DNA of 64,000 nucleotides from NCBI GenBank assembly GCA_008360975.2, contig VLJF02000034.1:744001-808000 (forward strand), written 5' to 3'. Position numbers and translations under genes: made by a program. This DNA comes from Lichenostomus cassidix. Lineage: Eukaryota > Chordata > Aves > Passeriformes > Meliphagidae. Positions 17,965 through 29,762 of this stretch are shown piece by piece. The notes beneath the pieces are model-generated. The model made no database searches, had not been told where the DNA came from, and was given only the letters and a program-made list of their open reading frames with translations. Numbering within the stretch: the stretch's first letter is position 1; each line of letters starts with the position of its first letter.

Positions 17965-17996
17965 GAGCTGAGCTCCTCTGGGTTCCCTGGAGCTCC
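17965..17996 (+). pseudogene. Truncated copy of TP53 exon 4 5' edge (copy A)
   Basis: CTTCCCCCAG then GAGCTGAGCTCC, continuing to GGAGCTCC before the array resumes. It reads ELSS then shifts frame because one C is missing relative to copy B. ELSS after exon 3 ...RLDW fits the bird p53 sequence WQELS, so this is a duplicated acceptor edge of exon 4. Confidence 0.7.
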
Positions 17997-18917
17997 AAAA
18001 TGGGATTTCCCCAAAAAATGAGATTTTTCCCCCCCAAAATGAGATTTCTCCCCCAAAATGATCCCCAGAATCCCCAAAATGAGATTTTTCTCCAAAATGA
18101 GATTCCCCCCATGCTATTTGCCCCAAAAATGCCATTTTCCCCCAAAAATGCCATTTTCTCCCCAAAAATGAGATTTTTCCCCAAAAAATAAGATTTTTTC
18201 CCCAAAAATAGGATTTTTCCCCAAAAACTGAGATTTTTCCCCCAAAAAATGAGATTTTCCCCCAAAAAATGCCATTTTTTCCCCAAAACATGAGATTTTT
18301 TTCCCCAAAAAATAAGATTTTTCCCCAAAATTGCCATTTTCACCCCAAAAATGAGATTTTTTTCTCCCAAAAGTGGGATTTTCTCCCCAAAAATGCCATT
18401 TTTCCCCAAAAAATGAGATTTTTTCCCCCAAAAAATGGGATTTTCCCCTCAAAAATGCCATTTCCTCCCCCAAAAATAGGATTTCCCCCCAAAAAATGCC
18501 ATTTTTTCCCAACAAATAATGAAGATTTTTCCCCCCACAAAAATAGGATTTTCCCAAAAAATGAGATTTTTTCCCCCAAAAATGCCATTTTTTCCCCAAA
18601 AAATGAGATTTCTCCCCCAAAAAATAGGATTTCTCCCCCAAAAAATGAGGTTTCTCCCCCAAAAAAAGGCTTTTTTTCCCCCCAAAAAATAAGATTTTTC
18701 CCCAAAAAATCCCATTTTTCCCCCCAAAAAATAAGATTTTTCCCAAAAAATCCCATTTTCCCCCCAAAAATGGGATTTTTTTCTCCCAAAAATGGGATTT
18801 TCTCCCCAAAAATGCCATTTTTCCCCCCAAAAAACGGCATTTCACCCCCAAAAAATAGGATTTTTCCCAAAATTTCCTATTTTCCCCCAAAAATGTGATT
18901 TTTCTCTCCTCCCCCAG

Positions 18918-18951
18918 GAGCTGAGCTCCCTCTGGGTTCCCCTGGAGCTCC
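18918..18951 (+). pseudogene. Truncated copy of TP53 exon 4 5' edge (copy B)
   Basis: Acceptor CTCCTCCCCCAG (AG at 18916-18917), then in-frame ELSSLWVPLEL running straight into array sequence and a stop at about 18972-18974. It is in phase 0 with exon 3. The proline-rich region does not follow, so this is probably not the working exon 4, whose 5' part should lie in the gap. Confidence 0.65.
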
Positions 18952-19136
18952 AAAATGGGATTTTTCCAAAATGAGATTTTCCAAAAATGAGATTTTCCCC
19001 CAAAAATGAGATTTTCACTCAAAATGATCCCCAGAATCCCCAAAATGAGATTTTCCTCCCAAAAAATGGGATTTTCCCCCCAAAAATGCCATTTTTTCCC
19101 AAAAAATGAGATTTTTTCCCCCAAAAATGCCATTTT

Positions 19137-19636
19137 NNNNNNNNNNNNNNNNNNNNNNNNNNNNNNNNNNNNNNNNNNNNNNNNNNNNNNNNNNNNNNNN
19201 NNNNNNNNNNNNNNNNNNNNNNNNNNNNNNNNNNNNNNNNNNNNNNNNNNNNNNNNNNNNNNNNNNNNNNNNNNNNNNNNNNNNNNNNNNNNNNNNNNNN
19301 NNNNNNNNNNNNNNNNNNNNNNNNNNNNNNNNNNNNNNNNNNNNNNNNNNNNNNNNNNNNNNNNNNNNNNNNNNNNNNNNNNNNNNNNNNNNNNNNNNNN
19401 NNNNNNNNNNNNNNNNNNNNNNNNNNNNNNNNNNNNNNNNNNNNNNNNNNNNNNNNNNNNNNNNNNNNNNNNNNNNNNNNNNNNNNNNNNNNNNNNNNNN
19501 NNNNNNNNNNNNNNNNNNNNNNNNNNNNNNNNNNNNNNNNNNNNNNNNNNNNNNNNNNNNNNNNNNNNNNNNNNNNNNNNNNNNNNNNNNNNNNNNNNNN
19601 NNNNNNNNNNNNNNNNNNNNNNNNNNNNNNNNNNNN
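19137..19636. other. Assembly gap (500 N) hiding most of TP53 exon 4
   Basis: Exactly 500 Ns, probably a placeholder of unknown true size. Exon-4 5'-edge copies lie to its left and exon-4 3'-edge copies to its right. Most of exon 4 (second transactivation region, proline-rich region, start of the DNA-binding domain) is therefore inferred to be inside it. Confidence 0.9.
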
Positions 19637-27067: not shown

Positions 27068-27177
27068 GTGGGCTCAGACTGCACCACAGTTCTGTACAAC
27101 TTCATGTGCAACAGTTCCTGCATGGGAGGAATGAACAGGAGACCAATCCTCACCATCCTCACCCTCGAGGGGCCTGG
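27068..27177 (+). CDS. TP53: TP53 exon 7: DNA-binding domain, zinc loop and R248 region
   Basis: 110 nt, the same length as human exon 7. Acceptor ATTCCCAG, donor CCTGG|gtgaga at 27178. It reads [20 protein letters not shown], then [17 protein letters not shown]. It contains the second pair of zinc cysteines (MCNSSC), the minor-groove Arg corresponding to R248, and R249. It leaves two bases of a Gly codon, completed by exon 8. Confidence 0.97.
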
Positions 27178-28080
27178 GTGAGACCAAAAAACCCCAAAAT
27201 CACCCCAAAATCCACCCCAAAATCTGCCAAAGTCACCCCAAAATTCACCCCAAAATCCACCCCAAAATCACCCCAAAATCCACCCCAAAATCCCCCAAAA
27301 TTCACCCCAAAATTCACCTCAAAATTCACCTCAAAATCCCCAAAATTCGCCCCAAAATTCACCCCAGAATCTACCCCAAATTCGCCCCAAAATCCCCAAG
27401 ATTTGCCCCAAAATTCACCCCAAAATCCACCCCAAATTCACCCCAAACCCCCCCAAAATTCACCCCAAAATCCCTAAAATCCACCCCAAAATCTACCCCA
27501 AAATTCACTCCAAAACCCCCAAACTCACCCCAAAATCTACCCAAAATTCGTCCCAAAATCCACCCCAAAATCACCCCAAAATCTGCCCCAAATTCACCCA
27601 AAATCCCCCAAATCCACCCCAAAATCCACCCTAAAATCCCCTAAAATTCGCCCCAAAATCTACCCAAAATTCACCCCAAAATGCCCAAAATTCACCCCAA
27701 AATTCACCCCCAAATCTACCCCAAAATCTACCCCAAATTTCCCAACCACCCCACAATCCCCTAAAATTCACCCCAAATTCACCCCAAAATTTGCCCCAAA
27801 ATCCACCCCAAATTCACTCAAATTCACCCCAAAACCCCCTGAAATTCACCCTAAATCCACCCCAAAACCCCTAAAATTCACCCTAAAATTCACCCCAAAA
27901 TCTACCCCAAATTCACCCAAAATCACCCCAAATCCCCCCAAATCCACCCCAAAATTCACCCCAAAATTCACCCCAAAATCCCCTAAAATTCACCCCAAAA
28001 TTCACCCCAAAATTCACCCCAAAATCCCCCAAAATCCACCCCAAAACCATGGCAATCAATATTTGGGGGTTTTTGGGTTA
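27178..28080 (+). repeat. TP53 intron 7, part a: CACCCCAAAATTCACCCC array
   Basis: Roughly 11-bp units CACCCCAAAAT / CCCCAAAATCC with no interruption. Nothing else is seen. Confidence 0.93.
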
Positions 28081-29640
28081 TTTTTTGAGGTTTTCGGGTC
28101 ACCAAGTCCTCCCATCCACCAGGGGGCAGACTCTCGGCCAGCACTGTTTCAAAGTTCAGCTGTCCCTGTGGATTTGGGATTTTTGGGGATGATTTTGGGT
28201 TGTTTTTTGGGGTTTTTTGGGTTATTTTTTTTGGATTTTGGTGTGTCTGAGTCCTCCCATCCACCAGGGCGCAGACCCTCAGCCGGCGCTGTTTCGAGTT
28301 TCAGCTGTCCCTATAGATTCAGGATTTTTGGGTCTTTTTGGGGGTTTTGGGTTATTTTTTGGGATTTCGGTGTCACCGAGTCCTCCCATCCACCAGGGGG
28401 CAGACCCTCGGCTGGCGCTGTTTTGAGGTTTGGGGATTTTGGGTTATTTTCTGGGATTTTGAGTTGGTTTTTGGGCTTTTTGGGGTATTTTGGGGGTTTT
28501 TTTGGGGATTTTCGGATCACCGAGTCCTCCCATCCACCAGGGGGCAGACCCTGGGCCGGCGCTGTTTCGAGGTTCAGCTGTCCCTGTGGATTTAGAATTT
28601 TTGGGTGGGGATTTTGGGGTTTTGGTTTATTTTTGGGATTTTCATGTCTCTGAGTCCTCCAATCCACCAGGGGGCAGACTCTGGGCTGGTGCTATTTCAA
28701 GGTTGTGTTGTGGTTGTTTTTGGGTTTTGGGGTTTTGGGTTTTGGGTGGATTTTGGGTTATTTTCTGGGATTTTGAGTTGTTTTTTGGGGGTTTTGGGTT
28801 ATTTTTTGGGATTTTGGTGTCACTGAGTCCTCCCATCCACCAGGGGGCAGACTCTGGGCCGGCGCTGTTTCGTGGTTCAGCTGTCCCTGTGGATTTGGGA
28901 TTTTTGAGGTGTTTTGGGGTATTTTTGGGGTGATTTTTGGGGTATTTCTGGGTGGTTTTGGGGATTTGATTTATTTTTGGGATTTCTGCTCACCGAGTCC
29001 TCCCATCCACCAGGGGGCAGACCCTGGGCCGGCGCCATTTCGAGGTTCAGCTGTCCCTGTGGATTTAGAATTTTTGGGATTTTTAGGGGTTTTGGGGTAT
29101 TTTTGGGGTGGTTTTGGGTTATTTTTGGGATTTTCATTGTCTCTGAGTCCTCCAATCCACCAGGGGGCAGACTCTAGGCTGGTACTATTTCAAGGTTTGG
29201 GGATTTTGGGTTATTTTCTGGGATTTTGAGTTGCTTTTTGGGGTTTTTGGGTTATTTTTTGGGATTTTGGTGTGTCTGAGTCCTCCCATCCACCAGGGGG
29301 CAGACTCTGGGCCGGCGCTGTTTAGTGGTTCAGCTGTCCCTGTGGATTTGGGATTTTTGAGGTGTTTTGGGGTATTTTTGGGGTGATTTTTGGGGTATCT
29401 CTGGGTGGATTTTGGGTTTTTGGGTTATTTTTTGGGATTTTGGTGTGTCTGAGTCCTCCCATCCACCAGGGGGCAGACTCTGGGCCGGCGCTGTTTAGTG
29501 GTTCAGCTGTCCCTGTGGATTTGGGATTTTTGAGGTGTTTTTGGGTATTTTTGGGGTGATTTTTGGGTTATCTCTGGGTGGATTTTGGGTTTTTGGTTTA
29601 TTTTTGGGATTTCGGATTACCAAGTCCTCCCATCCACCAG
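28081..29640 (+). repeat. Ten truncated copies of the TP53 exon 8 acceptor edge (129-173-bp unit)
   Basis: Copies start at 28123, 28268, 28397, 28541, 28671, 28844, 29014, 29164, 29297 and 29470, each after TCCTCCCATCCACCAG. They read [16 protein letters not shown] sequence (first about 38 exon bases) and diverge after GAGGTTC into AGCTGTCCCTGTGGATTT and then GGGATTTTTGGGTTATTTTT filler. The acceptors are essentially identical to the genuine one. Some copies have changes such as CGG to CTG at the Arg codon. Confidence 0.96.
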
Positions 29641-29762
29641 GGGGCAGACTCTGGGCCGGCGCTGTTTCGAGGTTCGCGTCTGCGCCTGTCCTGGTCGCGA
29701 TCGCCGCCTGGAGGAGGAGAACCAGCGCAAGAGGGGCGGGGCTGGGGGCGGGGCCAAGCGAG
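29641..29762 (+). CDS. TP53: TP53 exon 8: DNA-contact helix H2 and start of linker
   Basis: 122 nt (human 137; the difference is in the linker). It begins after CATCCACCAG. It reads (G)[20 protein letters not shown], then [20 protein letters not shown], with donor CGAG|gtgagg at 29763. [13 protein letters not shown] carries the residues equivalent to human R273, C277, R280 and R282. It is the eleventh and only complete member of the exon-edge array. The glycine-rich linker resembles bird p53 GGAGGVAKR. Confidence 0.97.

Follow-up and report, generated by a model that had tools for sequence, protein, structure and literature searches.

The 64,000-nucleotide stretch of the Lichenostomus cassidix genome analysed here (contig VLJF02000034.1, positions 744,001 to 808,000; hereafter the window) contains TP53 on the + strand, ATP1B2 downstream of it on the - strand and, at the left end on the - strand, a third gene that resembles MFS transporters. 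The introns of TP53 hold 32 truncated copies of the gene's own exon edges, all on the same strand as the exons, which derive from 7 of the 19 TP53 junctions and from exons 4-8.

TP53 was traced from exon 2 to exon 11 (14364-33508), with exons placed by splice signals and reading frame: exon 2 at 14364-14440, exon 3 at 16115-16160, the complete exons 5 (21888-22074), 6 (24753-24865), 7 (27068-27177) and 8 (29641-29762), and exons 9 (30450-30529), 10 (31968-32050) and 11 (33421-33508). The complete exon 4 presumably sits inside a run of 500 N (19137-19636) that separates its acceptor copies from its donor copies. Joined exons 5-11 give an open frame with a terminal stop and exons 2-3 are likewise open; exons 5-8, as sources of copies, are thus intact in the joined frame, with exon 4 behind the gap. 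The product matches the p53 DNA-binding domain (Pfam p53, E=4e-57) and the tetramerisation domain, and its best match to p53 structures has an E value of 1.5e-81. Among the best 120 of 709 protein matches, the nearest are from birds, with 93% for P0001 and, along the full length of the query, 88% for Catharus ustulatus, and alligator p53 reaches 66%; by protein similarity, TP53 of the window is passerine-like. At the 5' side of the gene, a promoter-like block with CCAAT, ATGGCGCC and GGCCACGCCCC motifs in tandem copies occupies 7600-7960, directly 5' of a possible TP53 exon 1 (about 8000-8044), and within the presumed intron 1 a long run of GGGGCCTTTGGG-like sequence (8050-9920) has long open frames that look meaningless.

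Exon-edge copies in the TP53 introns

The copies lie in arrays beside the exons that they resemble. The array on the 3' side of intron 3 (17301-19136), which ends at the gap, has two exon 4 acceptor-edge copies (17965 and 18918) with the first ~37 nt of exon 4. Intron 4 has a donor-side array (19637-20736) with three exon 4 donor-edge copies that end at 19908, 20206 and 20593, and an acceptor-side array (20737-21887) with six exon 5 acceptor-edge copies, in which the exon parts start at 20768, 20967, 21146, 21335, 21534 and 21712. A single exon 5 donor-edge copy (22434-22482) occurs in the donor-side array of intron 5 (22075-23014), so that both edges are copied for exons 4 and 5. In intron 6, the donor-side array (24866-26145) has seven exon 6 donor-edge copies, which end at 25021, 25186, 25330, 25492, 25668, 25819 and 25986, and the acceptor-side array (26146-27067) has three exon 7 acceptor copies with the junction CAG/GTGG at 26476, 26671 and 26900. 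The acceptor-side array of intron 7 (28058-29640) is the richest, with ten exon 8 acceptor-edge copies that start at 28123, 28268, 28397, 28541, 28671, 28844, 29014, 29164, 29297 and 29470. No copies were found at the other 12 of the 19 TP53 junctions (both edges of exons 2, 3, 9, 10 and 11, the exon 6 acceptor, and the exon 7 and 8 donors). All groups of copies listed in a preliminary description of this DNA were recovered at the counts given there, and its placement of the copies on the intron side with their splice signals is borne out by the scans, by alignment and by blastn.

Copies were sought chiefly with a scan of all 19 TP53 exon edges, anchored at AG or GT, in which chance was represented by five Markov-2 random sequences. 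Because exon 4 falls in the gap, its edges were represented among the queries by two of its own copies, an acceptor and a donor. The scan returned 27 copies, every one with a score of at least 14 compared to a top chance score of 9.5: acceptor copies of exons 4 (2), 5 (6) and 8 (10) and donor copies of exons 4 (3), 5 (1) and 6 (5). Its one off-target above chance, at 12.5, was a G-rich stretch at 7498 matched by the exon 10 donor query. The remaining five of the 32 copies (exon 6 at 25492 and 25986, and the three of exon 7) were found by reading and alignment. With AG/GT anchoring, the main scan alone cannot show how often splice sites are lost; a second scan without this requirement, which is less sensitive and has no chance control, recovered six of the ten exon 8 copies, one of the seven exon 6 copies and not the exon 5 donor copy, along with scattered low-complexity matches, chiefly of the exon 2 and exon 10 donors. 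When the nine mapped exons (exon 4 not being a query) were compared with the rest of the window by blastn, all 15 hits reported (at least 20 bp and at least 30 bits) were on the same strand and in a neighbouring intron. Fourteen exceed the 32.2-bit maximum of 20 shuffles and 12 reach at least 42.1 bits (seven of seven for exon 5, five of eight for exon 8), with none reported for exons 6 and 7.

The copies are not uniform. Those of exons 5, 6 and 8 carry adjoining intron sequence and therefore have a DNA origin rather than one from spliced RNA, and the exon 7 copies have mostly intron sequence in common with their source and only about 5 exon bases. The exon 6 copy at 25492 carries a deletion and that at 25986 has AT in place of GT. 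No inverted 16-mer of any mapped TP53 exon occurs in the window. All six exon 5 copies encode A in the motif YSPALNK, where proteins P0001, P0002 and P0012 have V; dating the copies by this residue is only suggestive because A is also present in P0003 and P0005.

Intron architecture and neighbouring genes

Composition segmentation of the three genes, with a penalty chosen by the analyst, no random control and introns 3 and 4 cut at the gap, yields exactly two blocks for 10 of the 16 introns, a single block for five and five blocks for one. By position, each of the 39 placeable copies shares a block with the exon from which it came. The placeable copies are all those of the three genes apart from five of exon 4, whose blocks are truncated by the gap, and three of ATP1B2 exon 2, in an intron outside the segmentation (intron 1). 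An affected intron typically consists of two arrays, one for each flanking exon. Tandem and simple repeats mask 83-100% of six of the eight TP53 intron stretches measured, 50% of intron 2 and 33% of intron 8 (all measured introns are at least 687 nt long, with introns 3 and 4 treated as one stretch including the gap). The earlier proposal that repeat expansion starts at exon-intron junctions is supported in part: the two-block introns and the position of copies beside their own exons speak for it, but 12 TP53 junctions are free of copies even though their introns are 33-100% tandem repeat.

The same pattern extends beyond TP53. ATP1B2, in which two exons match Pfam Na_K-ATPase, was located with an ATP1B2 query sequence, and its exons are numbered as in the human gene; its exon 1 was not found in the window. 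The MFS-transporter-like gene has two Pfam matches below the cut-off (E 0.004 and 0.025). The anchored scan detected copies at 3 of 11 ATP1B2 junctions and at one of four in the MFS-like gene, which brings the total to 11 of 34 junctions tested across the three genes (10 by scans and that of exon 7 of TP53 by reading). All of these copies are on the - strand. An ATP1B2 block at 45427..46317 contains an acceptor-edge copy of the last exon (exon 7; copy at 45855, true site at 45426), the exon 4 donor at 55594 has a donor-edge copy at 55435, and the exon 2 acceptor at 60329 has three copies at 60497, 60692 and 60921. In the MFS-like gene, an exon acceptor at 159 has ten acceptor-edge copies (266-1440) within 159..1486. 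Exon-edge copying is regional and not specific to TP53.

ATP1B2 has further irregularities. At the 3' end of the gene, a block with AATAAA is present twice, nearly identically and 593 bp apart (44490-45200, - strand), so transcript-end signals have been copied too. The surroundings of the exon 2 donor (GTGAGACCCCCGG) recur downstream at 59925 and 60105 (- strand) with very little exon sequence. Exon 6 (47318-47413, - strand) has two apparent single-base frameshifts in C-runs, which are probably assembly errors.

Predicted splicing of TP53

The preliminary description held that splicing must choose one true site among many equivalent ones. Scores from a rough splice-site matrix agree with this for exons 5, 6 and 8: exon 5 acceptors score 8.5 (true) and 6.9-8.5 (copies), the exon 5 donor and its copy both 8.8, exon 8 acceptors 8.3 (true) and 6.7-8.3 (copies), and the exon 6 donor 6.0, as do five of its copies, with -3.9 for the copy that lacks GT and one copy unscored. 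Equivalence does not extend to exon 7, in which copies are weaker (7.2-8.3) than the true acceptor (10.1). The exon 4 copies score 14.6 and 12.9 as acceptors and 8.6, 5.5 and 2.6 as donors, with the true sites in the gap.

If a copy were used with its true partner kept, a premature stop would follow in 26 of the 27 cases outside exon 4 (one of them without GT), and all 25 premature stops that were checked lie >55 nt before the last junction. Leakage to copies would thus mostly yield premature stops and be cleared by nonsense-mediated decay. Only the exon 5 donor copy at 22482 departs from this: it lies 408 nt past the true donor, in frame and with no stop between. The open stretch 22075-22482 would add 136 residues and closes with a repeat of the exon 5 end. 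Such an in-frame extension is not very improbable because the ~21-nt units are mostly stop-free and the frame has a one-in-three chance of being kept. If used, two of the three exon 7 copies would restore a donor that, at 8.7, outscores the native exon 6 donor (6.0) and could allow re-splicing to the true exon 7; the true junction would create one as well (7.2).

Intron definition has a quoted limit of 200-250 nt, and under exon definition the sites closest across the exon are preferred, according to Carranza et al. (2022, PMC9225289). The measured TP53 introns, at least 687 nt each, exceed this limit, from which we infer that the exons are under exon definition, in which case the outer true sites would be preferred. 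The arrays are probably tolerated only in this mode because the true sites are those closest across the exon and an intron-centric rule would pick the wrong copies. In other birds, complete p53 is coded on contigs of 1.2-1.7 kb (P0001, P0007, P0010 and P0013), lengths that leave no room for introns of this kind; these contigs probably represent transcripts in which the exons meet at their true edges. It is conceivable, but improbable, that the arrays make p53 splicing polymorphic: array growth would lengthen introns, longer introns would strengthen exon definition and stronger exon definition would permit further copying. The dose and isoforms of p53 would then be set by leaky use of the inner copies, with premature stops as the outcome, and of the exon 5 donor copy, with an open 136-residue insertion in the DNA-binding domain, and would vary between birds with array length.

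Origin of the copies

The preliminary description knew of no comparable system, a statement that no longer holds. Exon stuttering has been published for 115 chicken genes with 236 introns, 190 of these on dot chromosomes (Hron et al. 2026, PMC12954441). In that study, a lateral part of the exon and its splice site recur as direct tandem repeats across the adjacent intron, the coding exon stays intact, the introns are mostly simple repeat and the source lies within 1 base of the exon border in >90% of cases. The TP53 case belongs to this phenomenon: the copied segments extend from the exon border and take in the donor or acceptor, 12 of the 15 blastn exon hits of at least 20 bp in adjacent introns reach the 42.1 bits demanded of blastn-short hits in chicken, the source exons are intact in the frame of exons 5-11, and the introns consist heavily of simple repeat. 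It differs from the chicken set in the bird and the gene concerned and in that several exons of one gene are affected; TP53 is named nowhere in the main text of Hron et al. (2026, PMC12954441). That text mentions one or several expanded motifs per intron, with two clusters in one intron, suggests that copied sites may give alternative splicing and only speculates on mechanism; the two-array layout as a rule, unit relationships and p53 splicing outcomes do not appear in the parts available.

We consider it likely (probability roughly 0.8) that the 32 copies represent exon stuttering, in which segments across exon-intron borders were duplicated in tandem, with later exchange among the units. If a duplicated segment reaches from an intron partway into an exon, the array would keep one intact exon, at its outer end; duplications that spare this outer exon would survive selection, and those that disturb the whole exon would be lost. 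The position of the complete exon farthest from the intron, which had been pointed out for exons 5-8 and holds for all four, would follow from this duplication geometry together with purifying selection, and no special rule is needed. Mis-aligned recombination or template switching between units may then have multiplied single units and blocks. Relationships were assessed among 34 units in the four arrays with at least six copies. Only 3 of the 34 are most similar to their neighbour, compared to 8.0 expected in random order. A lag of five pairs up 8 of the 10 units in the MFS-like array (P=0.007), the outcome expected of a multi-unit block duplication. Unit relationships thus favour exchange or block duplication, at least in part. 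Identity between units has a median of 0.725 for exon 8 and ranges over 0.70-0.94 for exon 5 pairs. Nucleosome-sized spacing was considered and rejected: unit length is 129-199 nt in TP53 and 80-286 nt in the MFS-like array, with no common size.

Pure replication slippage, in which single units are copied one by one beside themselves, is the alternative that deserves most attention, although we regard it as unlikely. The tandem arrays are rich in G-runs, with 35 G-quadruplex (G4) motifs in TP53 compared to a mean of 0.05 in mononucleotide shuffles, which destroy the repeats' own base order, and the adjacent exon 8 pair 29297/29470 is 97% identical; the scarcity of closest relatives among neighbours and the lag of five units in the MFS-like array are not what slippage would leave. 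An assembly artefact, with extra exon edges that stem from wrong joins or false duplications of repeats, is very improbable. The 500-N gap does lie within the affected stretch, the exon parts of the two exon 4 acceptor copies differ only in C run-length, and the ATP1B2 exon 6 frameshifts imply that base errors exist, but the many substitutions and indels between units are not expected of false duplicates, three genes have the pattern (at 11 of the 34 junctions tested), the peptide AKSVTCT is doubled in a Lonchura protein model (P0022), and one stuttered chicken gene was checked in raw nanopore reads by Hron et al. (2026, PMC12954441). A recent large false duplication of the exon 4 acceptor pair has left no sign: flank identity is 0.73-0.76, and random pairs in the same array have a mean identity of 0.67 and a maximum of 0.78.

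We give as little credence to a selected function as to an assembly artefact; under such a function the copies would persist because they adjust p53 output as decoy or regulatory splice sites. Of the 32 TP53 copies, 31 have AG or GT, but selection is not claimed from these dinucleotides, as the copies are related and the anchored scans, the main one among them, demand them. The 20 nt on each side of the junction are the most similar part of the unit in the three aligned TP53 arrays (pairwise 0.88-0.96), and the exon 7 copies with CAG/GTGG could act as both acceptor and donor, comparable to published dual-specific sites (PMC10809524). Against such a function, similarity over the last 20 nt of the intron is only 0.58 in the MFS-like array, the junction region slips less than its flanks owing to a lower repeat content, ATP1B2 and the transporter-like gene have the same pattern, and GT is lost in one exon 6 copy. 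That exon pieces entered the introns by RNA-mediated or dispersed insertion is of negligible probability. The ATP1B2 exon 7 copy and its source have little intron sequence in common, as such insertion would leave them, but the exon 5, 6 and 8 copies include adjoining intron sequence, no inverted 16-mer occurs and matches outside the neighbouring introns are of low complexity only.

Several results weigh against stuttering by tandem duplication and exchange, or against the splicing outcome proposed with it. The lack of adjacency overall reaches only P=0.07 (for three or fewer), and none of the three TP53 arrays has a significant preferred lag (P 0.44-0.94). Intron G+C is not extreme (0.38-0.49 in seven of eight stretches), and the intron-side match to the source is short for the ATP1B2 exon 7 copy (3 nt) and exon 4 copy (9-15 nt). 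Contrary to the predicted use of the true sites, an older intron-centric proximity rule (Reed and Maniatis, cited in PMC9225289) would favour the inner copies, and the exon-centric preference is modest at equal strength, with the upstream 5' site used in 60% of events and no corresponding value for 3' sites in the available text of that paper (PMC9225289), so leakage to copies could be large.

Elements of this arrangement are known from other systems, so far as the available texts of the studies go. GC-rich avian genes such as leptin and TNF-alpha likewise have tandem-repeat introns rich in G4 motifs, but exon-edge copies are not reported and TP53 or p53 is not mentioned in the text available (Beauclair et al. 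2019, PMC6792250). Competition of several near-equal sites for one partner was analysed by Carranza et al. (2022, PMC9225289) with test substrates and human alternative sites, whereas TP53 presents a natural array with up to ten copies. The dual-specific AGGT sites of the polyubiquitin gene UBC are also arranged in tandem, like the exon 7 copies of TP53; the UBC sites delimit ubiquitin monomers and are used, whereas those of TP53 are candidate sites only (Duan et al. 2024, PMC10809524). Literature searches on TP53 or p53 combined with bird intron repeats returned no relevant result. TP53, the best known of tumour suppressors, is subject to a recently described instability that affects five of its exons in a row. 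This raises the questions of how the spliceosome selects the right site when up to eleven are nearly equal and how a strongly constrained gene survives in such a region.

The Lonchura striata p53 model P0022 contains AKSVTCT, the end of exon 4, twice. It is the only bird protein among the 120 listed with a repeated 7-mer of at least four residue types; the other such protein, from a tortoise, has an unrelated N-terminal repeat. The P0022 repeat would fit a duplicated exon 4 end in Lonchura striata, and automatic p53 models of birds, including P0022 and other odd models, may include or miss pieces through such copies.

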